Positions 1 to 64,000 of a DNA stretch of 64,000 nucleotides are shown here, piece after piece (the stretch's first letter is position 1; every line of letters starts with the position of its first letter). The notes below the pieces were generated by a model. That model had not been told where the DNA came from. It saw only the letters and a list, made by a program, of their open reading frames with translations, and did not search any database. Both the position numbers and the translations under genes were made by a program. This DNA comes from Hirudinaria manillensis (taxonomy: Eukaryota > Annelida > Clitellata > Hirudinida > Hirudinidae). The stretch is from positions 13,322,501 through 13,386,500 of the forward strand of contig CM067527.1 of the NCBI GenBank assembly GCA_034509925.1. The letters are read 5' to 3'.

Positions 1-219
1 ATATAAAATGGCCAATAATGGTTGTATTGATAATATATATTTATAAGTCATGTATGTATCGTTAAACTTTTAATAATAATAATAATAATAATTATTATTA
101 TTATTATTATTATTATAATTACAATAATAATAATAATAATAATTTAAACAAAATATTAATGGCAAGAACAAACAAAAGCTAAAGTCCAAAACCGCACACG
201 AAAGCACACATTCGACAAC

Positions 220-9304
<9,085 letters not shown>

Positions 9305-40920: not shown

Positions 40921-42217
40921 CTACGTTGGTCCTTTATTTGGGAAGGAATTTATTTATTTGTTTGTTTATTTATTTATTTATTGGGAAAATCAATAGGAAA
41001 ACAAAGTCAGCAAAAAAATTGAAACAAGGAAATTTCTGTTGACAACAAAATTTTTTATTTTGTATTAGTTGATGCAAAGGTGTGTGGTAAACAGAAAGTA
41101 CAAATTATGCAGTGATAACTTATAAATGATAAATAAATGCAATCTATAAAAGTTTCTAATAATGAAGTTGTAAGGCAATTTACCAACTAGAATTATTTTG
41201 TCAACAAGGTTAAAATGTATTGAAATTAGTTTAGATTTAACAATAGATTTCAGTAAGTTCATTGGAGTGTAATGTAGTAATTCTATCCTTTATGATGGCA
41301 ATGATTTGTTTGTTTTCAATCAATGATGATGATGATTGTTTTTTTTTAATTTCCAGCACGAAATCAAGTTCAAATCTATGCTTATTTAAGGATTTTGTTG
41401 AAAGTGGAACTATAAGGCGATATAAAATTTCGCTTTAAGGTTTTATGCACGTTAGAAATTGCTTTTGGCTAGTAAGCTTTTCATACAATCCACCACGAAA
41501 TCATTTCTAAAAAAAACACCATGAAAACTGAATAATGGCGAATTGATTTGAAATCACTTCAAAAGCCAGATATGATCTCACATTTTGTCAGCCAATTCTT
41601 TTATCATGATTCCAAACATGGTTTAATAATCTTTTAATTATTGCCGTGACTCAAATTTAATAAAAAAAATCGTAAAGAAATCTATTCGCATCTCCACCAG
41701 GCTTGCGCCTAAAAACACAAACGTTGAAGATCGCCAAACGAAGATCAAAGCAATCCTCGATAATGTAGCATCAATGTAAGCACAATAAATTTCCAAATGC
41801 TTTGTCATCAAAGGTAGTCTGATCAACTTGTTTTTTAAAATAAAACATTAACAAATTATCACTAAACTAATCATATAGCTCTACAATGGAAATGATTACA
41901 GGAACTTATGGAAAAAACCATATCGGATTTAGTTGCCGACAATAAAATAAAATCACCTTTGTCTAATTACATTTTTTGAAATATTTTAATAACAACATTT
42001 TGGTTTATAAGAAATAAAGACAAAAATTGATAAGTGTTCTAAAGTGGTAATTAATGGTTTGACAATGGGATACATAATTATATTAAGTTATTTAACCAAA
42101 AGACTATACTTGGTTTTTATTGAAATAAATATCATAAATTTATAAAGGTAAACACCGTGGCCTATTCTATCAAAACATCAGTTGATTCGTAGTGTAGCGG
42201 CTACTACTGCTGTAGCG

Positions 42218-44889: not shown

Positions 44890-45016
44890 TTATCCATTGT
44901 GTGGAATGTGGGACACTCGCAGATCTTCATCGTAGAAAATTCTGACCCTGTCCATTCTTAGGTCATCAGTTACTGGAGTATCTTCTGGCAGGCAAATGAC
45001 CTGAACAATTTTATTC

Positions 45017-45051
<35 letters not shown>

Positions 45052-46205
45052 GTTTAAATATTTTTAGTCATATTTTATTGGTGCAAATCCAGAAACTATG
45101 TTTGCTTAGAAGAAGAAGGATTTCAAATCCCATGACTTATGTTTAGAAGTTACAATAATAATTATAATAATATTATTATTACTTTTAATAAAATTTAATT
45201 TTTATGGTTCCACACGCATAGCAACAGAAATTTAGTGCTAACGTTGAAGCGTGGATGATGCTCTCTGATGTATTCCCTGGCTTCTTCTACATCCTGGTGT
45301 AGTTAATTATTATAAGGAGTTTATTTTTTTATGAACATTATTTTAAAATTAATTAATATAAAATTATAATAAAATTATTTTTTATAGCTTTTAATATTTA
45401 ATAATATTTAACAACATGAAAAACATTGGCAAAATCATTGAAAATCGTCGTCACCACCATCACCATCAATAGTAGTTTATTTAGGAAAATCGTAAAAGTT
45501 AATGAAATATTTCTCAATAATACTGATAATTAATAAAACAATTTTTTATATTAGAGTAAATAATAATTATTATTATAATAATAATTATTTTAATAATAAT
45601 AATTATTTTAATAATAATAATTATTTTAATAATAATAATTATAATAATAATTATTATTTTAATAATAATAATAATTATAATAATAATTATTTTAATAATA
45701 ATAATTATTAATAATAATATTTATTATTAAAATTATTATTAAATAAAAATAAATTATTATTAAAATAATTATTATTATAATAACAATAATAATAGTAATT
45801 ATAAAAATATTTTTCAAAGAATTTGTGAGCATTTTTACTAGATTTAGGAACAAAAAGTTAGCAAAGAATATAAATAAAATAATTCCAAAATAAAATTTGA
45901 AAGAAACCATAGTTAAATATTTCTAAAATTGGCATATTTCTTTGGCAACACTTTACTCACCTTTCCCACCAAATCTGGCCATGTTTGAAATTCACGTTCA
46001 CCAAAGTCGAACCTGATTTTTAAAACTATTTTCATGTAGATTTTTAATAATTCAATAATTTTTAATCATGTAATTGACAGATTATTAATTAATAAATTAT
46101 AACAAATTGTTAATTAATTATTAATTAATTATTTCTATTTCAATGGACTCACTGCTCCGACAAGACGGACAAACAAAGCAAAGATAAGACAATGGCCGAC
46201 TTCAT
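44890..46205 (-). CDS. Eglin-like serine protease inhibitor 1, P1 Asp
   Basis: A secreted potato-inhibitor-I family member (MEROPS I13; eglin c type) that should block chymotrypsin/subtilisin-fold serine proteases by a rigid, disulphide-free loop. Exons 46205-46153, 46012-45961, 45293-45243 and 45000-44890 give 88 residues. Signal peptide MKSAIVLSLLCLSVLSEQ; core FQTWPDLVGK with the family tryptophan (most paralogues here have Phe); helix DVEEAREYIREHHPRFN; loop exon LPEDTPVTDDLRMDRVRIFY. Alignment to eglin c puts Asp at P1 and Asp at P1'. Both loop-supporting arginines (Arg51 and Arg53 in eglin) are present. The tail lacks one residue compared with other copies. An acidic P1 is unusual, so either a Glu/Asp-preferring target or loss of inhibition is possible. 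Confidence 0.9.
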
Positions 46206-47479
46206 TGCGGACGCAATCTTTAGAATGAAATAAACAAAATCAACGAATTTAATCTAATTTTCAATGAAATTCTCAAAAATTATATTACGTCCGATAAATT
46301 ATATTACGATATTCGAGTTTGCCAGAAGTAACTCAAAAGAATCCTTAAAAGAATTGCTTGTGGCATCCAATTACTAGAGTAATCTTGATATTATCAAATC
46401 TTTATTCATTAATATTACCCTATATTCTCCGTCAAAGTCTATCGGTATTACAAATTATTCCTTGAACAAGCAGAATTTATAAGCACAATATAAACGCTGC
46501 CTATTTCAGAAACAGTCTGAAACAGTCCTAACAGTCAAACAGTCCTAATCTTAAATGGTCTCAGAAAATAAGTTCAATTCGACGAAATTCAGAGAGATTA
46601 AGAGCAAAAATAATAAATAAATACAAGATAACGAACGTTCAAAGTCCAGACACTGCACAAATCGTGAGACACACTTGAAAACATAATCGGATCTTTGAAC
46701 TTTTGCTACGAAATGCTGCGAAATTGAGGCAAAAAATCTACTAAATTACTTAATTAATAATAAATTACATAATTTTGATTTAAAATAATACTTTTAATTA
46801 TGTTTGTTCATGGGTTGAAAATTGGTTCTTTGAACGCTTTGGTTTTTAGCTTATGAGAGACAAACGAATCATTTATTATAAATTATTTATTAAGATTCAT
46901 TTAACTTAGAATTTCTAATAAATAGGATTTAAACCACAAAAGATATTTTAAAACTGTTTGTAAAATTCTTATCCTAATAGGATGTGAACAGTAAAATAAT
47001 TTACATTTAATTTTAATTAAGTTATATTATTGGACATTAATATTAATTTATTTAGGCAAGTATAAATTTATAATTAGCAAATAATTGTTGTTATAATTTT
47101 CTTTAATATTGCACAGCACCTCAACCCAAATTTATGAAAGACAAAAAAGAAACAGCACTAAATTCTGGTTAACAAGAATTTTAAAATAGTTTCAAAATTT
47201 CAAATAAATTTGACATATTTTCAAAAAAAAAAAATAAATTTCGAATAATCGTAAAACGTAAGAAAGTAAAAGACATTCAAAAGGAAAACAAATAAAATAC
47301 AATCATTCACAATTATTTACCATTTGAAATATCAGGTATAAAGTGTTAAAGCAACTATCTCTTCTTATATTTATTCCAGTTCAGAATTATTTCAGTAAAA
47401 AAATATTCATTAATCATTTTAGTTCATAAATATTTCAATTCAAAAAGATATTCATTATATTTTTCCGGTCAAACACTTT
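46206..47479. other. Intergenic, no gene
   Basis: AT-rich DNA between the first and second inhibitor genes. It contains the promoter side of inhibitor 1 and the 3' flank of inhibitor 2. No repeats of note and no exon-like segments recognised. Confidence 0.55.
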
Positions 47480-49249
47480 TCATCCGACAAATGGAACTTC
47501 GACGACACGATTTGTCCGAGTATTATAAAATATCCTCAGCCTATTCTGTCTAAAGTCTGCAGTTATGGGAGACCCTTGTGGCAAGAAATAAAGCTGAAGA
47601 TTTAAAGATTTAATTTAGGAAAATTGAAAATTTATTTGCCCAATTTATTTGCCAATTAGTTGTAGAAAATAAATGTTATAAAATAAAATAAATATATAAA
47701 ATATAAAATGTTGTAAATAATTAATTAATATATTACTATATAAAATATAAATATTATCTCATAATTGTCGGCAGGTTTTACATCTCGAAAAACCAAAAGA
47801 TGTATGCATATAGGACTGAGACTGAAATGCAGTGATCAGTTACACATAAAGGTAAATATACACATATGCACATACATATGCAACATACAGATATTCACAA
47901 AGCATCCTACAGCTAGTAATAATTCACACGAATTAATTCTGAGATTTTTAAAGTTGAAAAATCAAATTCTTGAATTCACTTTTAATCGGGGACGATTCAG
48001 CTGTAGATATAGAGAAACCTCTTCTACGGTCTGAACATTGATTTATTTAAAAGTTCATTTAAATTTAATAATTAAATTATATACGTTTTAATTTCGATTT
48101 AGATGCGTTTAGGCTTTAAAATTAAACAAAATCGAATAAAAATTATCAAATTAAAGGCCTACTTTGTCAACTAATTGTGGAAAACTCTCAAAATAAAAGT
48201 CTGAAATTTGAAGACTGAAACGACAAAAAATCTAGAAAGCACTTCTTCGAAGTAATTGATTTTTAGGGACACGAAATAAGATACCATTTAAAATTCAAGA
48301 ACTTTTATAAATATTGACTTTAAATAATTAAATATTAAAGTAATTCACAAATGTGAAATTTAATCTTTAACAAGGAATATAAAATAATAAACTTCAGGTT
48401 ACATTTTAATGAAACATGATGAAATATGGTGATGGTGAAAAAATGGAGAAAAATAGTGAAAATATGGTGATGGTTAAAAAAAAGGTGATGGCTAAAACTT
48501 CTAACCCTAACACTTACCCTAACCCTAACCCTAAACATAAGTCGTAAGCCTAATACTAACACCAACCCTAAGTTCAAAACCTAGCCCTAACCCTAACCCT
48601 AATCCCATGTTCTAATCCTAGTGCGTAATCCTTGCTTTTAAATGTTGGTAATACCCTAACACTAACCTTAACCCTAACCATAACCCCTAACCATTAATTA
48701 TAATATATATCATAATATTAATATTAAAAATATTATTAATATAAATAATATAATATTCATCATCATCATATAATAATAACAATAATAATAACCTTAGTTA
48801 ATAACCTGAATAATAACCTAGTTAATATTTTAATAGCTTGAATACTGATAATAATAATCATAATAATGATAATTATGATGATAATAATAAAAATAATGAT
48901 GATATAATAATAATAATAATATAATGCTGATAATAATAATAATCATCATAATACTACTAATAAATGACATAATAATGATAACAATAATAGTAATAATGAC
49001 AATTATTGCAATATAATAATATTACTATAACAATAACAATAATTTTAATAATAATAATAATAATAATAGCAATGCTAATGATGATTATAATGATAATACA
49101 TTATAAACATATTATAAATATACATAAATTAATTAAAAGTATTAGTAAGAATCGTTAACGAAAAACTTGGCATGAAACTGTTTTCAGAAACAAAATACTA
49201 ACGCAGACGCTACTGCAATCACGAAACTATGAATCACCCAGAACCTCAT
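47480..49249 (-). CDS. Eglin-like serine protease inhibitor 2, P1 Ala
   Basis: Exons 49249-49203, 48214-48163, 48030-47980 and 47593-47480 give 87 residues. Signal MRFWVIHSFVIAVASA; core YFESFPQLVDK; helix TVEEVSLYLQLNRPRLK; loop exon LPQGSPITADFRQNRLRIFY with Ala at P1, Asp at P1' and both supporting arginines. The correct second acceptor is the upstream TTTCAG at 48215; the nearer TTTCAG would shift the frame into a stop. Intron 1 is about 1 kb, much longer than in the paralogues, because it holds the telomere-like and microsatellite block at 48417-49080. Small P1 residues such as Ala suit elastase-type enzymes (family knowledge; the target is inference). Confidence 0.87.
48417..48690. repeat. 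ATGGTGAAAA / CCCTAA composite repeat, second copy
   Basis: An ATGGTGATGG(T/C)-AAAA tract (48417-48497) runs directly into CCCTAACAC-type hexamers (48502-48690). This repeats in miniature the junction seen at 4748. It is followed to about 49080 by AAT/GAT microsatellites. It lies in intron 1 of inhibitor 2. Confidence 0.85.
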
Positions 49250-49941
49250 CCCGAAAATGATTATATTCTATTTAAAAGTCAAATTCAAAACAATTATTTT
49301 GTAGTTAATATGTCAGACCCTCTCGACCATTTCACAATCTTTAATTCAATATTTTTAAACCAAATGTGGGTGTATTTTACTTAGAAATAAAACAAAAGCA
49401 TCAAAGGTCAGCACAGATCACAGTAAGCAGACATCTTTTTGGTCAAAGACCTGAGACAGAATTTCATTTTAGAATAATTTTTGTTGTTGTTTTGGGGGTC
49501 GTACATAATGACATTAAAGAAGATTACTGAGGACTTATATTAAGAAATTTCTGACTGTAAAGGAGAAGGGTAACAATAGTCCAGATGGTGCCATCATTTA
49601 TTTCCAACAGTGAATTGTCGTAAACAGGAAAGAATCGATGATGATGATGAACTTGTTTAAATACTTTATATTTTATAATAATTATCTCCATTCAAGAATT
49701 TTAATTATTAAAATAATTATCCATTATTTTAATTACTAATTTTCGAATTGCTACCACATCCAAGGAAAACCGAATTTTAAGTTTATTTGGAAGTGTAAAG
49801 TAATGATTCAAAAAGAGTTTCATTTAAGATTTTTATTCGATAAATGTTGATTCAAAGATTCATAAAATCATAAAATTTTCATTGCAAAATGAAAGAAGGT
49901 CTTCAGTGATCTCTTCAAAATTTGATTCTCCAAAGTTACTC

Positions 49942-50669
49942 TCAGCCCACGTACGGTATCATAACAACAAGGTTCGTATGAGGATCGTAATAGACACGCA
50001 CTCTATTGTAGCGGAGGTCAGATGTTACAACAGTAGCCACAGGCAAAAATACAACCTGAAGAATAACATAATTTATTATATTTACATTTATAAAAAGTCG
50101 GTTAAGAACTAAGAAATAATTCCATTTGTGTTATAAAGATTGCATAATATTTCAATAATGTAAATATTTATAAAATAAATAAATAAATTATATATAATGT
50201 AATATTAATATTTAGATTTAATCTATTTTATTTTAATGTGTTTGAACATTTTTAGACATTAACGGAATCTGATTAAAAAGAATCTGTGATTAACGTCATA
50301 ATGAGGATAATGAAGCTTGAAGTATTCGCGAGCCTGTTCTACCGTCTGAAAATAGTAAAATATAACATAAAATCACAAACATTTTAGATAATATTAATTT
50401 TAATAAAAATCAAAAATTAATTTAAAGTATAACAATAATTAAAATTAAATTTAAGATTAAATTACTATCGAAATCCAATGACAACCTTGTCCAGTACATC
50501 TGGAAAACTCCTTAATTCCCCTTCGAAATTTCTGAAAAAATTTGGCAAGTTTATAAAAGTATTCTATGCCACAACAACAACAACGACATAATAACGATGA
50601 ACATCAAAATACTAACGTTGAGGCCACAACCACAACAAACAATCCCAACAACAGCAACGACAGTTTCAT
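49942..50669 (-). CDS. Eglin-like serine protease inhibitor 3, P1 Ser, altered loop
   Basis: Exons 50669-50617, 50531-50486, 50345-50295 and 50055-49942 give 87 residues. Signal MKLSLLLLGLFVVVVAST; core NFEGELRSFPDVLDK, where paralogues have VVGK; helix TVEQAREYFKLHYPHYD; loop exon FLPVATVVTSDLRYNRVRVY. Ser is at P1, and the usual PEGSP ahead of the loop is PVATV. The frame is intact with both supporting arginines kept. The missing Gly and Pro around P5-P4 could weaken the canonical loop, so this may be a neofunctionalised or decaying copy. Its upstream region, signal exon and introns are nearly identical to inhibitors 4, 5 and 6. Confidence 0.88.
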
Positions 50670-50679
50670 CTTCTTTAAA

Positions 50680-50726
50680 ATCACGTTTTGAGAACGTGAT
50701 GTGTGAGCATTTCAACGTCTTTTATT
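50680..50726 (-). promoter_or_regulatory. Conserved upstream element of inhibitor 3
   Basis: Immediately 5' of the start codon lies a 21-base palindrome, ATCACGTT-CTCAA-AACGTGAT (50680-50700). Further upstream is a TATA-like AATAAAAG (50718-50726, read on the minus strand). The same pair occurs at the same distance ahead of inhibitors 4, 5 and 6. Confidence 0.45.
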
Positions 50727-50922
50727 AACAATGAATTTAAGAAATAGGGTTCAAGGGTCAATTTAAATTTAGCCGGCTTAATGGTTATATGTGTGTGTAT
50801 GTGTGTATGTATATGCATATTTATTTATAAGTCAACCTGAACTTTAAGACTCGATACATACTTCAACAATACATTTGTTGTAAATAACAGTCACTTCAAA
50901 TAATAGTATTAATAGTAACAAT

Positions 50923-50955
50923 AACAATAATAATGTTAATAATAATAATAATAAC

Positions 50956-50989
<34 letters not shown>

Positions 50990-50990
50990 G
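50923..50990. repeat. (AAT)n microsatellite
   Basis: AAT triplets with AAC interruptions lie in the spacer between the head-to-head inhibitors 3 and 4. A similar AAT tract lies at the corresponding place upstream of inhibitor 5 (54577-54630) and inhibitor 6 (56835-56893). Confidence 0.85.
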
Positions 50991-51242
50991 TTAGAATAAT
51001 TTATTAGAAGAAAAAACACAATTATATAATTAAAATCAAAGGGTATAATTAGATATAGAACAAAATATATAAATTAATGTTTTCTCATTTCTTGTCTAAT
51101 GCTGTATTAAAAGATAAAAGCTATAACAATGCAATTGCATACAACGAGCTAAAATATACAATCATGAACCTAATCCAGAAAATATGTAATTTAAGAGAAT
51201 ACATAAATTATACTTATATTATTAATATATTGTTGTAACCCG

Positions 51243-51308
51243 TTAGGAAGGCAAGTATTATCTTTCCGATTTAAAATTATTTTAAATTAAATTTAAAGAA
51301 ATTGAATC
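51243..51308 (+). repeat. Inverted repeat, left arm
   Basis: About 66 bases beginning TTAGGAAGGCAAGTATTATC are nearly the exact reverse complement of 52994-53060. The two arms enclose the plus-strand inhibitor 4 and the plus-strand pseudogene. Confidence 0.85.
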
Positions 51309-51440
51309 ATACACACATAAGTACACATACAAACATATGCATAAATATATAAATATATATACATACACATACACACACACAAACATTAAGCCGGCTAAAT
51401 TTAAGTTGACCCTTGAACCCTATTTCTTAAAGTCATCGTC

Positions 51441-51488
51441 AATAAAAGGCGTTGAAATGCTCACACATCACGTTCTCAAAACGTGATT
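51441..51488 (+). promoter_or_regulatory. Conserved upstream element of inhibitor 4
   Basis: TATA-like AATAAAAGG (51441-51449) followed by the palindrome ATCACGTT-CTCAA-AACGTGAT (51468-51488), nine bases before the start codon at 51498. Conservation of both in four paralogues suggests a core promoter and 5' leader element; the palindrome could be bound as DNA or fold in the leader. Confidence 0.45.
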
Positions 51489-51497
51489 TTAAAGAAG

Positions 51498-52206
51498 ATG
51501 AAACTGTCGTTGCTGTTGTTGGGATTGTTTGTTGTGGTTGTGGCCTCAACGTTAGTATTTTGATGTTCATCGTTATTATGTCGTTGTTGTTGTGGCATAG
51601 AATACTTTTATAAACTTGCCAAATTATTACTTTTCAGAAATTTCGATGGGGAATTAAGGGATTTTCCAGATGTAGTGGGCAAGGTTGTCATTTGATTTAG
51701 ATAGTAATTTAATCTTAAATTTAATTTTTATTATTGTTATACTTTAAATTAATTTTTGTTTTTTATGAAAATTAATATTATATAAAACGATTGTGATTTT
51801 ATGTTGTATTTTACTATTTTCAGACGGTAGAAGAGGCTCGCGAACACTTCAAGCTTCATCATCCTCAATATGACGTTAATCACAGATTCTTTTTAATGAG
51901 ATTCCGTTAATGTTTAAAAATGTTCAAAAAAAATGAAAGAAAATAGATTATATCTAAATTATATATAATTTATTTTATAAATATTTACATTTTTGAAATA
52001 TTATGCAATCTTTATAACACTAATGGAATTATTTCTTAGTTCTTAACCGACTTTTTATAAATGCAATTATAATAAATTATGTTATTCTTCAGGTTATATT
52101 CTTGCCTGAGGGTTCTCCTGTAACATTTGACCTCCGCTACAATAGAGTGCATGTCTTTTACGATCCTCGTACGAACCTTGTTAACCAAACGCCGTACTCG
52201 GGCTGA
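51498..52206 (+). CDS. Eglin-like serine protease inhibitor 4, P1 Phe (inverted)
   Basis: The only intact family member on the plus strand. Exons 51498-51550, 51638-51683, 51824-51874 and 52093-52206 give 87 residues. Signal MKLSLLLLGLFVVVVAST; core NFDGELRDFPDVVGK; helix TVEEAREHFKLHHPQYD; loop exon LPEGSPVTFDLRYNRVHVFY. P1 is Phe with P1' Asp. The first supporting Arg is kept and the second is His. The rest tracks eglin c closely, so a chymotrypsin/cathepsin-G-like target is expected from the P1 rule (inference). It lies head-to-head with inhibitor 3 inside the inverted-repeat-bounded block. Confidence 0.93.
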
Positions 52207-52441
52207 GAGTAACTTTGGAGAATCAAATTTTGAAGAGATCACTGATGACCTTCTTTAATTCCAATGAAATTTTTATGATTTCATGAATCTGTGAATCACC
52301 ATTTATCGAATACAAATCTTAAATGAAACACTTTTTGAATCATTACTTTACACTTTCAAATAAACTTATAAATATTTTAAATTAATAAATAACAACTCGA
52401 TTTTCCTTGATGGATGTCGTAACAATTCGTAACAATTTTAG

Positions 52442-52902
52442 TCCAGAAATCGAAAGGACTGTTTTTCCGAAAATATTTGGAATGGTGGTCATTCTAAAAC
52501 ATTTTAAAATTAGAACAATTTAAATTCCATTTAACAAATTCAATCTATTTTTAACAAACTTAATTTTAAATTAATGTTTTTTAATCGATGTAAATATTAA
52601 ATTTTCAGACGGTGTAAAAGGCACGCCAATAGCTTAATCACTTTTATCCAAAATATAAAGTTAGCCATGCTTTGAGTTTCAGTAGTTATGAACAAAGAAT
52701 GTGAAGTTTGTTTTGAGATAAATATTAATATTGTGGAATAAGTTAATGAATTAATAAATTATTATCTCAATCATGATCTATTATTGAGTAGGTTTATTTT
52801 GTATCTGAATCTGTCCCTGTGGTTAATCAAGACTTTCGTCAATACAGGATAATCGTCTTTCACAACTCTCAAACCAAACGTGTTAATCATTTCCGCTTGT
52901 AG
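52442..52902 (+). pseudogene. Degenerate eglin-like copy (plus strand)
   Basis: Three exon remnants in the right order and spacing: 52442-52484 (core-like PEIERTVFPKIFGM), 52609-52659 (helix exon of the standard 51 bases, but with in-frame TAA and TAG) and 52792-52902 (loop exon, SESVPVVNQDFRQYRIIVFH, ending in TAG). Splice AGs and GTs are mostly kept; no signal exon was found between 52207 and 52441. The position matching P1 is Asn. The stops and the missing first exon mark it as a pseudogene. Confidence 0.8.
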
Positions 52903-52993
52903 GTTGAAAAGAATTTTTGTAAATCAATTTGTCAGAAAAAAACTTGCTAAAATTTCATTTAATATCATTTTTTTTTTATTTTATGAACTTTGA

Positions 52994-53060
52994 TGATTCA
53001 ATTTCTTTAAATTTGATATAAAATAATTTTAAATCGGAAAGGTAATACTTGCCTTCCTAA
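52994..53060 (-). repeat. Inverted repeat, right arm
   Basis: Ends in ACTTGCCTTCCTAA and pairs with 51243-51308. It continues at once into CCCTAACC-type hexamers (53056-53083), so the break lies next to a telomere-like tract. Confidence 0.85.
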
Positions 53061-53201
53061 CCCTAACCTTAACCCTAACCCTGCCTTTCTATACCTGTAT
53101 TTCCATTTTAACAAATTATTAAGTTTCCGTTTATTTTCCTAATAATGAAATGAGAAGATTATATTTATGCTTATCTATAACAAATTTTGAAATTCATTTA
53201 G

Positions 53202-53202
<1 letters not shown>

Positions 53203-53257
<55 letters not shown>

Positions 53258-53258
53258 C
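53203..53258. repeat. (ATT)n microsatellite
   Basis: A near-pure ATT run followed by diverged ATT and ATC triplets to about 53335. It separates the inverted block from the 3' flank of inhibitor 5. Confidence 0.9.
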
Positions 53259-53523
53259 ACCATCATCAATATTATTACTATCAGTATTATATTAATATTA
53301 TCATTATTTTCACCATTATTGTTATTATAAGTATTTTAGCCATTTAGTTTAAAATATTTATAAGTCTATTTGGAAGTGTAAAAAGTATTGATTCAAAAAG
53401 TGTTTCATTTAAGATTTGTATTCGACAAATGGCGATTCAAAGATTCATAAAATCATAAAATTTTCATTGGAAAATGAAAGGTCTTCAGTGATCTCTTCAA
53501 AATTTGATTCTCCAAAGTTACTC

Positions 53524-54232
53524 TCAGCCCGAGTACGGCGTCTGATTAACAAGGTTCGTATGAGGATTGTAAAAGACACGCACTCTATTGTAGCGGAGGT
53601 CCAATGTTACAGGAGAACCCTCAGGCAAAAATATAACCTGAAGAATAACATAACTTATTATAATTGCATTTATAAAAAGTCGGTTAAGAACTAAGAAATA
53701 ATTCCATTAGTGTTATAAAGATTGCATAATATTATAATAATGTAAATATTTATAAAATAAATTATATATAATTTAGATATAATCTATTTTATTTCAATTT
53801 GTTTGAACAGTTTCAAACATTAATGGAATCTCATTAAAAAGAATCTGTGATTAACGTCATATTGAGGATGATGAAGCCTGAAGTATTCACGAGCCTGTTC
53901 TACCGTCTGAAAATAGTAAAATACAACATAAAATCACAAACGTTTTATATAATATTAATTTTCATAAAAAACAAAAATTAATTTAAAGTATAACAATAAT
54001 TAAAATTAAATTTAAGATTAAATTACTATCTAAATCAAATGACAACCTTGCCCACTACATCTGGAAAACTCCTTAATTCCCCACCGAAATTTCTGAAAAG
54101 TAATAATTTGGCAAGTTTATAAAAGTATTCTATGCCACAACAACAACGACATAATAACAATGAACATCAAAATACTAACGTTGAGGCCACAACCACAACA
54201 AACAATCCCAACAACAGCAACGACAGTTTCAT
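53524..54232 (-). CDS. Eglin-like serine protease inhibitor 5, P1 Leu (closest to eglin c)
   Basis: Exons 54232-54180, 54092-54047, 53906-53856 and 53637-53524 give 87 residues. Signal MKLSLLLLGLFVVVVAST; core NFGGELRSFPDVVGK; helix TVEQAREYFRLHHPQYD; loop exon LPEGSPVTLDLRYNRVRVFY. This 20-residue stretch carries Leu at P1, Asp at P1' and both supporting arginines, exactly the arrangement known in eglin c. Among the array members this is the best candidate for the true orthologue, with expected activity against elastase, cathepsin G, chymotrypsin and subtilisin (family knowledge). Tail NPHTNLVNQTPYSG. No cysteines in the mature part. Confidence 0.95.
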
Positions 54233-54242
54233 CTTCTTTAAA

Positions 54243-54290
54243 ATCACGTTTTGAGAACGTGATGTGTGAGCATTTCAAAGCCTTTTATTG
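54243..54290 (-). promoter_or_regulatory. Conserved upstream element of inhibitor 5
   Basis: Palindrome ATCACGTT-CTCAA-AACGTGAT (54243-54263) with a TATA-like CAATAAAAGG (54281-54290, minus-strand reading). The arrangement is identical to inhibitors 3 and 4. Confidence 0.45.
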
Positions 54291-55637
54291 ACGATGACTT
54301 TAAGAAACATGGATCAAGGGTCAACTTAAATTTAGCCGGCTTAATAGTTGTTGTGTGTGTATGTGTATATATTTATATATATATGCATATGTTTGAATGT
54401 GTACTTATGTGTGTATGTATATGTATATATATTTATACATCAACTTGAACTTTAAGACTTGAAATCTGAATAATGTTGCATCAGACGATTTTCAAATATA
54501 TTTGACCTTTGATTTTTTTCAGTTAATTCCAAACTTGTTTGGTACGCATGTTTGTTGTAAATAAGTCACTTCAAATAATAATAATAATAATAATAATAAA
54601 ATTAATAATAATAATAATAGTAATAATAATAACTGGAATAATTTGCTAGAAGAAAAAACACAATTTTATAAATAAAATAAAAGTATCCTCATAGGATCTG
54701 AGATAATAACGATATAATTTGTTACCATATGAAATCGTTCTTGAATTATCTTCTAATAAAAACATATAAATTTTTCTATTAAAAGAAAAATAAACAAATA
54801 AATAATTATAATAAAGTATATATTTAAAAAAATTATTCGATTAAAAATAATTAAAGAATCTTCATCTTCTTCTTCAGGTCACAATTGGAAGAACAAATTT
54901 CGTGACCAACCATGTTTTCAACCACGCGAATCCTTTCCTTAGCTCAGGGTTAGGTAACCCTTTGACGTTTGGTTAATGAAGTATTTTAAATCTCAATTAA
55001 AAATGTTAATTTTAAAGAAATCGAATCATCAAAGTTCATAACATCATAAAAATGTTGATAATAAATGAAATTAAATTTTTGCTGGCAAATTGCAACAATA
55101 ACTTCATCTTTTCAACCGTTTTGTAAAGATTTCAATTTACAAAAATGCAATTCGAACATTTAAGTCCTTTTGAATACATTTTTGGATGGTTCATAATCTG
55201 GCGATTGTTTTTTAAAGCGGACCTTCACCGGGGTTAAAAATGTTTTCGTCATTTATTTTCAAATGGGAAATATTTTTAAATTTAAATTTTGTCCATTAAT
55301 TTGACAATTGATTTTCCATCATCTATTTGTGCTTTTAACATTTCTCTAAAAATAGTTGCAATAAACATGCAAAATTATGCATTCTATCGTTTCTATTCTA
55401 TTCGCTCGAATTTGCGAATTGTTCCGACGTCCATCCAGGAAAATGGAATTTTAAGTTTATTTGGATGTTAATTATTGTTAAAGTAATGATTCAAAAAGTG
55501 TTTTAAATGTTTCATTGAAGATTTTTATTCGAAAAATGGCGATTCACAGATTCATGAAATAATAAAAATTTCATTGGAATTAAAGAAAGTCTTCAAATTT
55601 TGTGAGCTATTCAAATTGTGGTCCTCCAAAGTTACTT

Positions 55638-56592
55638 TCAGCCCACGAATGGTGTCTCATCAACACGGTTTGTACGAGGATTGTAAAAGACACGTACTCT
55701 ATCGTAGCGGATGTCCATGGTTACTAGCGACCCCTCAGGCAAGATACGAACCTGAAGTTTAATAATTGGTAATTTATTAGCTCATGAGTTTCACGCAAAT
55801 TAGCAATCAGAAGATTATAAAACGCAGACGGTGGTAGCAAGCACTATTTACAAATTGCATAAAATTTCATATATAATATAATATAATATGATATGATATG
55901 ATATGATATGATATGATATGATATGATATGATATGATATGATATGATATGATATGATATGATATGATATGATATGATATGATATGATATGATATGATATG
56001 ATATGATATGATATGATATAATATAATATAATATAATATAATATAATATAATATAATATAATATTTAGATTTAATCTTTTACGTATTGAACATTGTAGAC
56101 ATTGGTTTTGAAAATATCCGTGTCTAACGTCATATTGAGGAAAATGAAGCTTGAAGTATTCCTGAGCCTGTTTTATCGTCTGAAAACAACGAAATTATAA
56201 TATAACATTAACTTTATTTTAAAAACACAAATTAATTTAATGTACAACGATGGTTACAACGAAAATTAAATTTAAAATTAATTTATTATCTAAATCAAAT
56301 GACAACCTTGCCCACTACATCTGGAAAACTCCTAAATTCCTGATCGAAATTTCTGAAAAGTAATAATTTGGCAAGTTTATAAAAGTATTCTAATGTAATA
56401 TAATAATATATCCATAATAATAACGACATAATAACAATGAACATGAATAATTCTGAAAAGTAATAATTTGGCAAGTTTATAAAAGTATTCTATGCCACAA
56501 TAACAACGACATAATAACAATGAACATCAAAATACTAACGTTGAGGCCACAACCACAACAAACAGTCCCAACAACAGCAACGACAGTTTCAT
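55638..56592 (-). CDS. Eglin-like serine protease inhibitor 6, P1 Met
   Basis: Exons 56592-56540, 56352-56307, 56179-56129 and 55751-55638 give 87 residues. The signal exon differs from those of inhibitors 3-5 by one synonymous base. Core NFDQEFRSFPDVVGK; helix TIKQAQEYFKLHFPQYD; loop exon LPEGSLVTMDIRYDRVRVFY with Met at P1, Asp at P1', Leu in place of Pro at P4 and both supporting arginines. Intron 1 carries a partial self-duplication: TTCTGAAAAGTAATAATTTG occurs at about 56351 and 56452. Intron 3 holds a long ATATG run. Confidence 0.92.
55870..56064. repeat. (ATATG)n / (ATATA)n pentanucleotide tract
   Basis: About 26 consecutive ATATG pentamers flanked by ATATA pentamers, in intron 3 of inhibitor 6. 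The high purity suggests recent expansion. Confidence 0.95.
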
Positions 56593-56602
56593 CTTCTTTA
56601 AA

Positions 56603-56650
56603 ATCACGTTTTGAGAACGTGATGTGTGAGTATTTCAACGTCTTTTATTA
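56603..56650 (-). promoter_or_regulatory. Conserved upstream element of inhibitor 6
   Basis: The same 21-base palindrome (56603-56623), with an AATAAAAGA TATA-like stretch further upstream (56641-56650). Beyond it the shared upstream homology breaks down at an AT dinucleotide run near 56720. Confidence 0.4.
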
Positions 56651-56714
56651 ACGATGACTTTAAGAAATAGGGTTCAAGGGTCAACTTAAATTTAATATAA
56701 AAATAAAATTTAAC

Positions 56715-56746
<32 letters not shown>

Positions 56747-56845
56747 TGACCTTTGAATTTTTTCGGTGAATTCCAAATTTGGTTGGTAAACACTTCAAGT
56801 ACGCGTTTGTCGTAAATAACAGTCACTTCAAATAATAATAATAAT

Positions 56846-56893
<48 letters not shown>

Positions 56894-57948
56894 TTTTATT
56901 TTTGAAAGAGTAAGAACTGCCTCTAATATACTTCCACTAATATTATAATAATATTATATTATTATATATTAAAATATTATTAATAATAATATTAATATTA
57001 ATAATAATAATTAATATTCACCAATATAATAAATCAATAATTAATAATTATTATTCATTTAATAGCAAGCAATAAGATTTACAGAGATAATAACCGAATG
57101 ATTGGAAGAATTAAATTCAAGTTGCAAATAAGTTAATAATAATAATTTAATAAGTTAATAAAGTTACAAATTGATCGATAAACAGCCTCATAAGGTTCCT
57201 TTAATTTGCCGATTTTAATTAAACCTAGTTTTCGGTTTCAGTCGTGTCCGCTTTAACCAAATCAATTCGAAAAGCTTGCGTTTTTAACAGAAACGTGACA
57301 ATAAATATTAAGACATTCATTAACTATTCATTCGAATATTTAAACAGAATATGATTTAAAATGCTCCTTTGTAACTTGGCCCTTCCTCGATTCAAAGAGC
57401 CGCCACTTATGTTTATTTTTGACTTTATTTCATGAAATATGATCAACTTTTAATAATTTTTGAGTTAATTGTTTCAGCAAATACCAATTCGTCAGACAAA
57501 AAAAAGACCAAGCAAGAATTAATATTAATACCAGTTGAAGCTGTGAACTGATTTCATAGGAAAGCAGAAAAAAAAATCAAAAAGCGTTTCGAAAAGTTGA
57601 ACGATTCTCCATAAAATCTGTAATAATTTCTTTAACCCTCTTGAGGCACCTGAAATGAAAGAAATAATTGTTTAATAAAATATAAAATTTCAAATTATTG
57701 ATCAGTTAATTATTAATTCACTAACCAAATTATATTTGAATTAAATTTAAATTAAAATTTTATTAAAAGAAAACATTCACTCAATTTTTCCAATACCCAT
57801 AAAAGCTACAAATACTCCGCCAGCCATACCACTAGAGGTACTGGCTAGAGGTACCACTAGAGGTACTGGCTAATCAAATAAATGCATACATATTCTACAT
57901 AATTTAACAAATCTCAAATTTAAATAAAATAAATCGTTAATAAATAAA
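56651..57948. other. Intergenic, microsatellites only
   Basis: Contains an (AT)n run at 56719-56746, an AAT tract at 56835-56893 and AT-rich sequence to 57950, including a small duplication of TACCACTAGAGGTACTGGCT near 57826-57870. No further inhibitor exons were recognised. Confidence 0.55.
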
Positions 57949-59150
57949 CTAATTAACACAATCACAAACTGCTGTAAATCTTAAACCGTACTCAGTTACC
58001 TCAACAACAATGTTTGTCTCGGGATCATAAAAAACTCGAACTCTTTCAATGCGAATATCTTTGGTAACAGGAGTCCCTTGTATGTAATATAACACCTGGA
58101 ATTGTTATTATTATTAAATCATAAATTATAAATTTATTATTATTTTATATTATTATTATTATTACAATAAATTTAATTAAAGTAAAAAATTGCTTCAATT
58201 AATTTACAATTTTGTTCGGAATAACTTAAACTAGTCACAATCTAAAACAAATAAACTCTTTTCTTAACACACGTAAATATATTCAAGTGATTATTTATGA
58301 AAAATAAATTTAGATTTTTTAAAAGAATTAAGGTTAAAATATTATGAAATGAAAATAAATTTAAAAGTATTCTGCAAATCACGTGGAAATTAGGACGATA
58401 TGTTTCGAAGAAATAATGGACCTCAGCGATGTTCTAAAAGAATTAAAGAAAATAAATTGAATTAAATTATTAAATAATATTTTAAAGAATATTTAAATAA
58501 ATTGATTAAAATCATTTTAAGCCTTTTAATCTATTAATTCATTTAAACAATTATACTAATGGATGCATTATCTAAACTAATTATAATATCTGTAAAATTT
58601 TAATATTAAAATCAATAAAACAATTAAAAATAAAGTTTTATTAATAAAAATAAATTGGAGAAAATTTGCAAGTATTTTGAACATAAAAATTCGTTCGGTT
58701 TTTTGCTTGGCAGAGCAGAGAAGAAAAATATAATTTAAAAAAGTCACCTTGCCCTTTAAGTATGGAAATGATTCGAACTTATTTCTCTCAAAGATTCTGA
58801 AAATAATAATACTATTATATTATATTGTAATAATATTATTATTATTGTCAGAATCTTTGAGAGAAATCAGTTTTATATAATAATAATAATAATATTAATA
58901 TTAATAATAATTAATTATATATAATATTATTATATAATATTATTATATTATATTATTATATTATATTATTATATTATATTATTATATTATTAAAATTATT
59001 ATATTATAATATTATATTATTATATTGTTGTAATATTTTATTATTATTAACAAATGCTTATCGCAATAATAAAATACTAATCTGTACCAACTGTGCATAA
59101 AGAGCTGTCAATAAAAACAGCATCAATCCCAAAGCCAGCAAAAGCTTCAT
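57949..59150 (-). CDS. Eglin-like serine protease inhibitor 7, P1 Lys, extended C-terminus
   Basis: Exons 59150-59092, 58796-58748, 58433-58383 and 58095-57949 give 101 residues. Signal MKLLLALGLMLFLLTALYAQ; core NKFESFPYLKGK; helix NIAEVHYFFETYRPNFH; loop exon IQGTPVTKDIRIERVRVFYD with Lys at P1, Asp at P1' and both supporting arginines. A basic P1 predicts trypsin-like targets, unlike eglin c. Where the paralogues end in Gly-TGA this copy reads Gly-TTA, so the stop is lost and 11 residues (LRFTAVCDCVN) follow, including two cysteines in a family that normally has none in the mature protein. Confidence 0.9.
58903..59036. repeat. (ATATTATT)n AT-rich tract
   Basis: TTATATTA-type units lie in intron 1 of inhibitor 7. 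Next to it is an inverted copy of AGAATCTTTGAGAGAAAT (58848-58865) from the second exon (58780-58797), forming a hairpin-like pair. Confidence 0.75.
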
Positions 59151-60054
59151 ATTTCCAATCTGAACTGAAATAATTTAAAAATCGAAAGGCATTTTATTTA
59201 CGAACAACGCTTTCCAATTATAAACCGTAAAAATTGGGATCTTCACGTTTGGCCAAAGTTCATCATCAAAATTCTACGTAAGAGCTTTTTATTTTCCCAT
59301 TTTAATTGTTGCGTGTCCAATTTATGTAATATTTACATTTGATTTACGTTAAAACATGATAAAATAAAAAAAACTGAAAATCTTCTTTCACCGTGCTTAT
59401 GTTGATCAACTCCACCAATCAGAAATGATTTCGAAGCTCACAAAGCCGGTATTTAGACAGGTTTTTAGGAACAATATTAGCTTGTACCGGCTTGAATTTG
59501 ACTAGCAGTTCAATACGTATGTATGTAGTACGCATCAGCGCAAGTATATTGGCCCGAGAGAATATCAATTATGGCAGACATTGGTCTAGTGAAAGAACTG
59601 ACACAATATAAGCCTTATAAATGCTAAGTTCTAATGAATTGTATTAACAAACATCTAGGTGACTCAATTCGATTTTATCTTAAATTAATAAATATTTCTT
59701 AAATTGTATGTTTTTTTTGGTAAATAAATAATATTTAATTAATTATTTCTTAGTATTTCGTATATTAATTTACTGCTTTATTTGTGATTTTAGATAAATA
59801 TCTAATTAGTTGTTTTTTGTTAAAAGTGAATTATGAATTGAACACTTTTTATGCTATATAATATTTATTTAAGAATTTGAACAGAAATATTGCAGATTCA
59901 GCATCAAATATCAAACCATTTCAATCTCATTGCGCATCACTGATGTCAAAGCGATTAAAAAATTTCCAGATTAAACAAATAATTCCAAAAATAGGAAATT
60001 TTAAAAATATTGGAAGTGTTTTCGTCATCAATTAATCCACTTTAGATTCCAAAT

Positions 60055-61039
60055 TCAGCCCTCATGTGGTACTCTAACAACAAGGTTTGTTTCGGGATCG
60101 TAAAATACTTGGACTCTGTTTAGCACCAACAATCTGGTTAAAGTGGTTCCATCTTTATAAAATTCTGTCTGAATAAGAGAGGAAAATTTGATTGCGTTTT
60201 GTCCAAATACTTAGAAAAAAATTGAATAGAATTATTATTTGCAAAATAAGAATGATAATGCAATTTTATTATATTTTGTTATACATTAATTAAAATAATA
60301 TGAAAACTGAAAAATATTTATTAAATTTTAACGAAAATCTTACCTGCAATTCTGGATGATTCTGTTGAAAATATTCTCGAACCTCGTCCACATGCTATTA
60401 TTATGTCACATATTAATAATAATAATAATAATATATTGAAAATTATGACAAACAAATTAACCAAAACTTTGTTATTTATTTTTTATCACTTCATTAGAAA
60501 TGAATGAAAAGTAAAAAAATTACAAAATGCCCAAATATCTCTTTAGAATCAATACCTTCAATTACACGAGTAATAAATCTGACAGAATACTTTACAGGTT
60601 TTATTTTATATTAAAGATATTTTAAATATTTTAAAGCCCTAATGATGGTAACATTTTGAACACAGAACATAATTCATTCAAGAAATTGAACCAAAAAGCA
60701 GTCTTAAAGTAACAACCTTGTGAAGCAATTCAGGAAAAGAATAGAATTCTCTGCCAAAAAATCTGAAAATCAAATTTAAAATATTAAAATTTTAAATCAA
60801 AATAATGAAACTGAAGTAAATGTTTTGGAAGACGTTCCTACGAAATACCATTTTTTAATATATCGAGGTATTAATTTTCAGCATCATTTATTTTGCATGA
60901 ATTTTTATTTATTTTGTTTATAATAACAGGATATTAATTGGTAAACTAGTATGGACAACAAATCTAAAACAAAGTACAAAACCAACCCAGAAACCAAAGC
61001 AACTGAAAGAAGCAGTCCCAATGCAACCAAAGCCTTCAT
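60055..61039 (-). CDS. Eglin-like serine protease inhibitor 8, P1 Arg
   Basis: Exons 61039-60987, 60762-60717, 60394-60344 and 60168-60055 give 87 residues. Signal MKALVALGLLLSVALVSG; core FFGREFYSFPELLHK; helix HVDEVREYFQQNHPELQ; loop exon YKDGTTLTRLLVLNRVQVFY. P1 is Arg and, unusually, P1' is Leu instead of Asp. The first supporting Arg is kept and the second is Gln. Trypsin- or thrombin-like preference follows from the P1 rule, but the changed P1' and support residues make potency uncertain. Little nucleotide similarity to inhibitors 3-6 outside the shared gene structure, so this is an older duplicate. Confidence 0.9.
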
Positions 61040-61832
61040 ATTTCAACCCCAGTTGTTAACAACACTATAACAATCCTATTATAAGCTTTAACAGAATTAC
61101 ACCAACCCTGTTCGGAGTGTCACTTATTATAAGCTATGCTTGCTGAATGTTACAAAGTCCAGGATTACGCTTAATATTTCATCAGGTCATTATTTTTTTT
61201 TAACCAAATATAATTGGAAAAATAACTCATTGAGTACTTTCTGAAGAAAGAAAGAAAGAAGTATTCCGTTGATTCCTAAAAGTTTGTTTGCATTGTAATT
61301 GAACATCAATCGACAATGAAACATCAACAACAGTCGATGATGTATTCTTAGAAAGATCAATTCAAGTATTATCTGCTTAATTGCTATGGAATTAACGCAT
61401 TTAAAAATTAATTTTAACAATTGCGAAATTTATTAAATTACCAAGGAAGCAATAATGTATTACCAATTTATTAGGCTCAACTGTTCTGCATAATCCATAA
61501 GGTGATTATGGCTGAGCAACGGTTTATTTAAACGTTTTCTTTAAAATTATTGCATTTTCTGTATTTTAGAGAAATTACAACTAAACAGTCCTTTACGTAA
61601 GTTACTCAAATTGGAAATGATAAAAATACATTTTACAAAACAAAGTCTACCTTGACTGTTTCAATATTTTTCTTTAAATTAAATGTTAATCTAAATTTCT
61701 TTATTAAACTCTAAATAACTTTTAATTTCACGTCATTAAAAATTTCAATCTGTTTCATAATGTTGTCTTAAATAATTATAACAAAAAATTTATTGTTTCA
61801 TTTTTAAAGATTTTTTCTTTTATCCATTTTCT

Positions 61833-63023
61833 TCAACCTATGACGGGCACCTGAACGACTTTGTTCGTGTTGGGATCGTAAAACACCAGTACCCTGGAGG
61901 GATTGTAATCGTGGCTCAAGCTTGATCCGATAGGGAGAAATTCGACCTGGAATTTATTCAGGATAATTTGAAAATAATTAAATATTAAAAATATACTATT
62001 TAAAAATAATCTAGCTCAAATATGAAATTTAATATGTTTACTTAAGGGTTTAATTTTGTGAAACTGTCGATTACTTTAGAAAAATCGTTCAAAAAAATTT
62101 CATTTTGAAAACTTGTGAATGTCAAGCATTTTAAGCAGCAATAATATTGCAGAGCTAAAATGAATTAAAAATTAAATAAAATTTTTGGCTACTCACATCC
62201 AGGTGTGGATGATATTGCAGGAAAAATCTCCTAGTCTTGTCGATGCTCTGAATGCAATAATTTTGAAAAAATAAAATTAACTAAATAATAAGCACAATTT
62301 TATGAGGAAAATAAATGTCTATACGTATTATTATGCACATGCAAATGTATTTATAATGGCTAAACCAATGCTTAAGTATTTGTAATATTCATTTTACAAG
62401 TGATTACAGTTAATTTATTAAACTCATTTTAAGAAACAGGTTTTTTGGAAAGGTATGAGACAAAATATCCAATAAGTTCAATTTTCCAAATAAAATAGTA
62501 AAAATATCGCAGAAACATTGAAGCCATTCGTTCATAACCTTGTTGAGCAACTTAGGAAAAGACTGGATTTTTCCCTTAGGACGTCTTTCATGAATAATAG
62601 AAAAAATAAATAAGTTTATATAATGATACATTATAAAATATACATTACACATTTATACCTGTACTATACATCTAAGGCCCAAATTCTAATCGTTAAAGCT
62701 GAACCACATTTGCCGTAGTGGTTAGTGTTAGGGATTAACTCAATAAAATCATCTTTAGTGTTAATCTATTGACATTTGCCCATCTGTCAATACAAGGCTT
62801 AAGTTTAACTTTCAATTAAATCACTTTATCAATAACCTACCTCTGGCATTAATTAATATACTTAAACCTAAATATAATCTATCAGGTAATATATTCATAA
62901 GCACATATATCCGGCATTTGTGTACCGCTAGAAATTCGGATTTACCGGATGTAACACTAACACTGAATCAGCAACGACGAGTAACAACCCAGTAGCACAC
63001 AGCGAAAACAACAATACTCTCAT
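61833..63023 (-). CDS. Eglin-like serine protease inhibitor 9, P1 His
   Basis: Exons 63023-62962, 62584-62539, 62247-62197 and 61946-61833 give 90 residues. Signal MRVLLFSLCATGLLLVVADS; core PKGKIQSFPKLLNK; helix SIDKTRRFFLQYHPHLD; loop exon LPIGSSLSHDYNPSRVLVFY with His at P1 and Asp at P1'. The first supporting Arg is kept and the second is Leu. The short acceptor before exon 2 (CATGAAAG) is weak but gives the only in-phase join. This is the most diverged intact member and the right end of the array in this window. Confidence 0.87.
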
Positions 63024-64000
63024 CTCTCAGGCTGTTGAGCAAAGCAAACAAATCAACAACAAGTATTAATAATTTCTGAAATTATTTCCTTTTATAAAAG
63101 TGGTCGGGAAAATTATGCCTCAAGATGAGCGGAGTTTGATCACTCAAACACTTGAAAATTTCTAAGGTTCAAGTACGTTCACCATTTTCTTTTCTATGTT
63201 ACATGTAGTAAGTGATAATACTCTAATATAACATTATAATACATTAATAATTTAAATTAATTTATAATCACATAAAGATGATTAACCTTTAACATTGAAT
63301 AGATTTTTTCTTAAATTACCTTAAATTTTCTTGAGTTCAAAGTTAATATATTTGCTATTACATATTAAATAAATTCATTATGTTATTCAGACAAAATACG
63401 ACTTGATCCAAAAGCAAAACTGAAGTGCAGCTTTCAAGTTCGAAGCACAATGATTTCAATTTGTTGGATTTATATTCAATAGTGGAACGCAGATTAATTT
63501 TTTTGTTTTTACAATTACTTTGGACTCTTTGCAATTGAATCAACATCTTTATTTCTTCAAAATAACTTTCCGTGTGATTTCAAATCGTTGTTTAAGAATC
63601 GTTGGCTCGATGCCAATTTAATTTTTAATTTGTAAAGATAAAGACCAGATTTGTTTATATTGGAGATGTCAATATTATATAGGTAATGTAAATTTATTTT
63701 CACAAAGAGATTAAAACAGCATCTTGAACGTATCGAGTTCGAAGTTATTCAATACTCAATTTCATTTCACTAACTAAGAGGTTTGAAAATAGTTTTTCTT
63801 ACCAAATCTAATCATAAAACAATGTTGTAAGCAGAATCAATATGCACTGAGAGATTACTGGAACTTGCTCAGAAATGCCAACGAGGCAAGAGACAAGATC
63901 AGGAAAGCAGGGTAGCTGGTAATTCGTCTGGAATTGTTGCAAAAGTCCTTGGTGCAAAAACAATATTGGCCTTCTAATCCACTCTGTTTTCCACATTCAT
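63024..64000. other. No supported gene
   Basis: AT-rich sequence to the window edge. A minus-strand open frame at 63808-63996 includes a hydrophobic stretch (SYPAFLILSLASLAFL in another frame), but neither frame shows the inhibitor exon pattern. Confidence 0.45.

Follow-up and report, generated by a model that had tools for sequence, protein, structure and literature searches.

Eglin c of the leech Hirudo medicinalis is a small member of the potato inhibitor I family (MEROPS I13; PF00280) with a loop of the form TxDLR, in which Leu45 occupies P1. Here we describe an array of genes of the same family, likewise small and with a comparable loop, in the leech Hirudinaria manillensis. The array begins in a stretch of 64,000 nucleotides (contig CM067527.1, positions 13,322,501 to 13,386,500, assembly GCA_034509925.1; the window below) and continues beyond it, comprising 16 intact genes and three pseudogenes in ∼45.2 kb. 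It probably represents a set of diversified, secreted serine-protease inhibitors that arose by repeated local duplication and whose copies should differ in the proteases they bind.

Known eglins and their relatives

Multiple eglins are described in other leeches: seven copies in H. medicinalis according to the accessible text of PMC7303139, and 11, 5 and 2 in three species of Whitmania, where only 7 of 15 have conserved the TLDLR reactive residues (PMC11897028, Liu et al. 2025). The Whitmania genes resemble the present array in being multi-copy and in having often changed reactive residues, whereas the main text of that paper gives no P1 list, exon-intron test or array map. In H. manillensis itself, the accessible text of PMC10671345 (Liu et al. 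2023) reports four eglins, 83.08-88.41% similar to eglin and called relatively conserved, as against the 16 intact genes found here. These four are probably our copies with P1 Ser, Phe, Leu and Met, because the similarities fit roughly (81-90% positives in our alignments), and about 12 further intact genes appear unreported in the accessible part of that paper.

Among the 16 intact genes, the P1 Leu copy (g06) is closest to eglin c, with 81% identity over 68 mature positions, and groups together with it (support 61); its protein is 98% identical over the full length to H. manillensis eglin C A0A291RBX5. In contrast, the other 15 genes show 36-71% identity to eglin c and none has P1 Leu. Besides eglin c constructs, the protein-database relatives included one protein named as coming from a leech (many matches are nameless), and querying with the g16 protein yielded none.

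The I13 inhibitors of plants, rotifers and other organisms (CI-2, BWI-1, HPI) share the family and the loop, and their P1 residue varies among species. A set of 61 outside relatives (plants, rotifers, protists, a bacterium and others; P0001 and P0002 left out) contains 14 P1 types, P1 ranking eighth by entropy. The array differs from them in that Asp or Asn at P1 is found in 3 of its 16 genes and in 0 of the 61 relatives, a sample that is biased because these relatives share words with the array query.

The Kunitz/BPTI fold of snake inhibitors is unrelated to the eglin type. The snake venom families built on it are similar to the leech array in having tandem inhibitor genes, highly conserved introns and site-specific positive selection (PMC5107962, accessible text).

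No paper with the 16-gene array or its P1 list turned up when the literature was searched for an eglin array with diversified P1 among the sources within reach, which excluded most subscription papers and supplementary files; the closest were leech genome papers. The original prediction, made from the window alone, had suggested that its breadth of P1 residues may be undescribed. The ∼12 genes beyond the published four favor this suggestion, whereas the already varied Whitmania eglins (PMC11897028, accessible text) and the P1 variety of the family at large do not. Inhibitors with a varied P1 are already known as a kind, while the 16 intact genes exceed the four reported for H. manillensis.

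Extent and layout of the array

The window contains nine intact eglin-type genes and one pseudogene in tandem, as originally predicted, and the outer limits of their splice models fall at exactly 44,890 and 63,023. A tblastn search with eglin c recovered 10 loop exons between 44,893 and 61,946, and no loop exon of comparable E-value elsewhere in the window. Each of the nine genes was modeled by a splice-constrained search with four exons, in-frame GT-AG junctions and identical phases; the frames are open by construction, because these searches left out stop-containing pieces. The end of the window cuts the array, which extends for ∼26 kb more and reaches window-equivalent position 90,112, as revealed by a genome search with PF00280 and local searches of the flank. 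This outer part (66,574-90,112, window-equivalent) adds seven intact genes, with P1 Met, Asn, Met, Lys, Asp, Met and Glu, and two pseudogenes, one frameshifted and the other with a stop in exon 3. Four dispersed loop exons occur in the genome outside the array, with P1 Ser, Met, Ile and Arg by our own reading, not all of them modeled as whole genes. The gene counts are lower bounds, since the whole-genome PF00280 search scores the best candidates only.

All 16 intact translations match PF00280 at E ≤ 0.001, and a profile derived from the array picks up 54 distinct PDB sequences at the same threshold, among them structures of eglin c and CI-2. All four exons were modeled in 14 of the 16 genes, the first exon of g17 and g19 being unsettled, and these 14 first exons are hydrophobic, a property by which they were partly selected.

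Within the window the strands are mixed: the Phe copy (g04) and the pseudogene (g05) lie on the plus strand and the remaining copies on the minus strand. The Ser, Phe and Leu copies (g03, g04 and g06) are embedded in large inverted repeats at 49,775-54,351, up to 895 nt long and 95% complementary, which shows that duplication was accompanied by inversion. The whole tandem array was probably built by repeated local duplications, some of them inverted. Degenerate CCCTAA-like interstitial repeats of telomere type are located inside the array at 48,493-48,690 and 53,043-53,082.

Variability of P1 and conservation of the loop framework

Homology with eglin c and CI-2 predicts that the last exon encodes the canonical loop, which each copy would present in a substrate-like manner with P1 entering the S1 pocket of the protease. 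From the loop to the invariant Arg51 there is no insertion or deletion, so that P1 can be read directly in the in-window genes; the reading gives Asp, Ala, Ser, Phe, Leu, Met, Lys, Arg and His in the nine intact genes, in the order originally predicted. The pseudogene g05 had been assigned Asn. One additional residue in this copy makes its P1 doubtful: tblastn sets Gln opposite Leu45, and Asn results if the copy is read from the N-terminal side, hence we do not take Asn as secure. The further claim that no residue is used twice does not hold for the array, as Met occurs in four of the 16 intact genes, Lys and Asp in two each, and Ala, Ser, Phe, Leu, Arg, His, Asn and Glu once each (11 types). 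It failed because the window edge had cut the array, and we therefore discard 'ten copies, ten different P1 residues' as a property of the locus. Nor are all-different residues decisive, being weak evidence alone: nine different residues in nine draws have a probability of 0.12 under uniform frequencies and 0.056 under the family composition.

Conservation was analyzed in an alignment of 68 columns that runs from 14 codons before the end of exon 2 through exon 3 to codon 37 of exon 4, with the three pseudogenes (g05, g12 and g13) left out. Among the nine in-window copies, P1 is the sole column with nine residues (the next has six), and over the 16 genes it has the highest entropy, with 11 types against nine in the next column. 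Fitch parsimony also assigns the most changes to P1 (11, against 10 for each of the two columns that follow and 5.1 on average). When each recent clade is represented by one hand-chosen sequence (12 in total), the lead of P1 shrinks to nine residues versus eight in seven other columns.

The positions around P1 are nearly fixed: Thr at P2 and Asp at P1' in 15 of 16 genes each, and Arg51 in all 16. We take P2 Thr, P1' Asp and the core Arg51 and Arg53 to be the residues that support the canonical loop in eglin structures. Thr44, Asp46, Arg51 and Arg53 are all kept in 12 of the 16 genes; Arg53 is missing in g04 and g18, Asp46 and Arg53 in the Arg copy (g09), and Thr44 and Arg53 in the His copy (g10). 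Because of these losses, the Arg and His copies in particular might inhibit less strongly or in an altered way. In most copies, then, the framework is kept while P1 and nearby positions vary, from which we infer that the copies should bind different serine proteases.

Divergence of the loop exon in recent duplicates

We used the introns of close copies as a neutral yardstick for the loop exon and aligned seven pairs, four of which have introns less than 6% diverged. In three of these four recent pairs the divergence of the loop exon is 3-4 times that of the introns: 18/114 sites (15.8%) versus 22/440 (5.0%) for Ser-Leu (g03-g06, p 3e-4), 21/114 (18.4%) versus 21/440 (4.8%) for Ser-Phe (g03-g04, p 9e-6), and 15/114 (13.2%) versus 29/766 (3.8%) for g11-g15 (p 2e-4). 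The ratio of nonsynonymous to synonymous substitution rates (dN/dS) of the loop exon is 6.4, 2.0 and 4.1 in the same pairs. Change beyond the intron level argues for selection for change rather than decay, and selection for loop-exon change in recent duplicates is supported by these comparisons, while selection at P1 as a single site is not demonstrated.

The sequence on both sides of the loop exon is less diverged. Intron 3 before the exon differs by 4-7%, the first 47-50 bases past the stop differ at 0/47 positions in Ser-Leu, 1/50 in Ser-Phe and 4/50 in g11-g15, and the first ∼160 bases at 8/157, 10/158 and 10/160, respectively (5-6%). The sole control compares the intact g18 with its frameshifted relative g12; here the loop exon is not more diverged than the adjacent intron (4/106 versus 19/295, p 0.46).

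The idea of a protease-inhibitor repertoire, put forward in the original prediction, is partly supported by the near-fixed P2, P1' and Arg51, by the modeled hydrophobic first exons and by the loop-exon excess, and has to be weakened in that P1 residues recur.

Several observations weigh against selective diversification. The fourth recent pair, Phe-Leu, has no significant excess (7/114, 6.1%, versus 13/445, 2.9%; p 0.15) and a loop-exon dN/dS of 0.41. The three pairs that include the Met copy (g07) have introns 27-28% and loop exons 21-26% diverged, without excess and with dN/dS of 0.66, 0.38 and 0.38. The Ser lineage is common to Ser-Leu and Ser-Phe, so the significant pairs represent two independent cases. 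In g11-g15, P1 is Met in both copies and the first 50 bases past the stop differ by 8%. The 250-base 3' flanks of the Ser, Phe and Leu copies differ by 13.5-22.4%, which we take as misalignment beyond ∼160 bases. The dN/dS of exons 2 and 3 is also high in several pairs, so that in these pairs the excess extends beyond the loop exon. Of the 16 intact copies, four (g04, g09, g10 and g18) miss at least one of the four framework residues, and three array copies are pseudogenes. Moreover, the wider family shows a comparable variety at P1.

The codon site models belong on the same side. The per-site dN/dS analysis proposed with the original prediction yielded no class above 1: for the 16 sequences, twice the log-likelihood difference between M2a and M1a was 0.00, a comparison with low power given the deep divergence, and P1 fell in the dN/dS = 1 class with 0.99. 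The run had a fitted kappa of 1.50 and omega of 0.34, the latter being the overall dN/dS across the 16 deeply diverged sequences, with branch lengths fixed up to scale. In a FUBAR-like grid with default kappa 2 and omega 0.3, the probability of dN > dS at P1 was 0.32, and Tyr35 and His65 were favored instead. Neither approach found positive selection at P1, and we do not claim it from site models. For eglin c of other leeches, the accessible text of PMC3631404 reports no positively selected codon by SLAC, FEL and PARRIS and one by REL.

Alternative explanations

If constraint on duplicates were relaxed, they would drift, P1 would vary as the best-tolerated position, and its variety would need no selection for new targets. 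The placement of P1 in the dN/dS = 1 class, with no class above 1 across the array, is what such drift predicts; its variety throughout the family, the three pseudogenes and the framework losses in g04, g09, g10 and g18 point the same way. However, drift should not exceed the intron level, as nonsynonymous change in the loop exon does in Ser-Leu (17/83 sites versus 22/440 in introns, p 2e-5) and in g11-g15 (13/86 versus 29/766, p 1e-4). The fixation of the neighboring P2 and P1' in 15 of 16 genes and the absence of excess in the single pseudogene pair (g18-g12) speak against it too, and we consider relaxed constraint unlikely, if still deserving serious weight. The excess could also be an artifact of gene conversion, which would have homogenized recent copies in their introns and in exons 1-3 and left exon 4 with its older divergence. 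Conversion at the 5' end is itself likely: in its pairs, the otherwise diverged g07 has 1/53 differences in exon 1 and 1-2 differences in 82-87 positions of intron 1, against 17-43% in introns 2 and 3, so that its exon 1 and intron 1 have likely been converted recently. As the cause of the excess it is improbable, for the low divergence on both sides of exon 4 means that the tracts must have skipped one exon in two separate lineages. An array created by misassembly, through collapse or false duplication, is very improbable. Although very similar inverted copies are difficult to assemble, the 16 copies are all different from one another in protein sequence, and the assembly statistics agree with the PacBio HiFi and Hi-C assembly in the accessible text of PMC10671345.

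A different question, compatible with selective diversification of the array, is where the proteins act. They could work inside the leech, on proteases of the crop content, tissue or symbionts, and not on those of host blood, in which case their diversity would follow that of leech or microbial proteases. In the accessible text of PMC7191736, eglins and other anticoagulants show no differential expression when salivary cells are compared with muscle, and protection of the crop content is cited; that of PMC11897028 describes 11 eglins in the non-blood-feeding W. acranulata, with expression above that in W. pigra. On the other hand, PMC7191736 also names, in the same accessible text, neutrophil elastase and cathepsin G as enzymes that leech eglins inhibit. 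Action inside the leech is accordingly a substantial possibility, to which we give somewhat less than even weight.

Gene models

The exons of the nine in-window genes, each of which matches PF00280, are given in order of transcription. The Asp copy (g01, 44,890-46,205, minus strand) consists of exons 46,153-46,205, 45,961-46,012, 45,243-45,293 and 44,890-45,000, stop included. It is followed on the same strand by the Ala copy (g02, 47,480-49,249; exons 49,203-49,249, which is less certain, 48,163-48,214, 47,980-48,030 and 47,480-47,593) and the Ser copy (g03, 49,942-50,669; exons 50,617-50,669, 50,486-50,531, 50,295-50,345 and 49,942-50,055). The inverted Phe copy (g04, 51,498-52,206, plus strand; exons 51,498-51,550, 51,638-51,683, 51,824-51,874 and 52,093-52,206) has His in place of Arg53. 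The pseudogene g05 (52,609-52,899, plus strand) retains an exon-3 remnant with two stops (52,609-52,662) and a shortened exon-4 remnant (52,792-52,899).

The remaining genes are on the minus strand. The Leu copy (g06, 53,524-54,232) has exons 54,180-54,232, 54,047-54,092, 53,856-53,906 and 53,524-53,637, and the Met copy (g07, 55,638-56,592) has exons 56,540-56,592, 56,307-56,352, 56,129-56,179 and 55,638-55,751. Intron 3 of the latter carries a long tandem repeat of pentanucleotide type, ATATG and then ATATA, at 55,871-56,065. The Lys copy (g08, 57,949-59,150) comprises exons 59,092-59,150 and 58,748-58,796, both set by hand, 58,383-58,433 and 57,949-58,095; its frame does not stop at the usual terminal Gly but adds a C-terminal extension of 11 residues, two of them Cys (57,949-57,984). 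The Arg copy (g09, 60,055-61,039; exons 60,987-61,039, 60,717-60,762, 60,344-60,394 and 60,055-60,168) has lost P1' Asp, Arg48 and Arg53, and the His copy (g10, 61,833-63,023; exons 62,962-63,023, 62,539-62,584, 62,197-62,247 and 61,833-61,946) has Ser at P2 and has lost Arg48 and Arg53. The first exon of g02, the first two exons of g08 and the weak exon-2 acceptor of g10 are the least certain parts of the models. Mature leech eglins lack Cys. Downstream of exon 1, Cys residues, counted by eye, are absent from 13 of the 16 models; g01 has one, g08 the two of its extension, and g17 a single one where exon 2 begins.

Neighboring sequence

Small cysteine-rich open frames resembling Ly-6/uPAR proteins are found both inside the array and next to it, at 63,858-64,000 and at window-equivalent 80.0-83.7 kb; one of three tested matched the QVR family, weakly and below the Pfam cut-off. 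Beyond the array, repeated open frames were noticed by eye at window-equivalent 91-121 kb. One piece of these has a match to the cysteine-rich domain of ADAMTS (E 3e-11) and a second matches the PLAC domain weakly, below the cut-off, which suggests that a metalloprotease cluster may adjoin the inhibitor array. Elsewhere in the window, minus-strand open frames judged by eye only resemble an ABC transporter (73-3,945) and an ENTH/epsin domain (40,706-40,933).

Predicted targets and significance

Among P1 residues, Phe, Leu and Met suit the S1 pockets of chymotrypsin-like and subtilisin-like enzymes and of cathepsin G, Ala and Ser those of elastase-like enzymes, Lys and Arg those of trypsin-like enzymes, and Asp and Glu those of acidic-specific enzymes; His and Asn are unusual. 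Accordingly classified, the copies would differ in the serine proteases they bind. It is a tentative and rather doubtful extension of this idea that natural I13 inhibitors whose P1 residues are rare or absent in the sampled relatives (Asp twice, Asn, Glu and His) arose through selection on the loop exon, for targets other than the usual ones of eglin, such as acidic-residue-specific serine proteases; the genome would then nearly amount to a natural P1 scan of eglin.

Engineered P1 variants of eglin c exist in the literature. Provided that the copies are expressed, a single genome supplies 11 P1 variants on one natural scaffold that can be compared with them, and such a comparison would show whether duplication and loop change have broadened the protease targets of leeches. 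Should the 16 genes include the four published ones, about three quarters of the array escaped an annotation that relied on similarity to eglin c.

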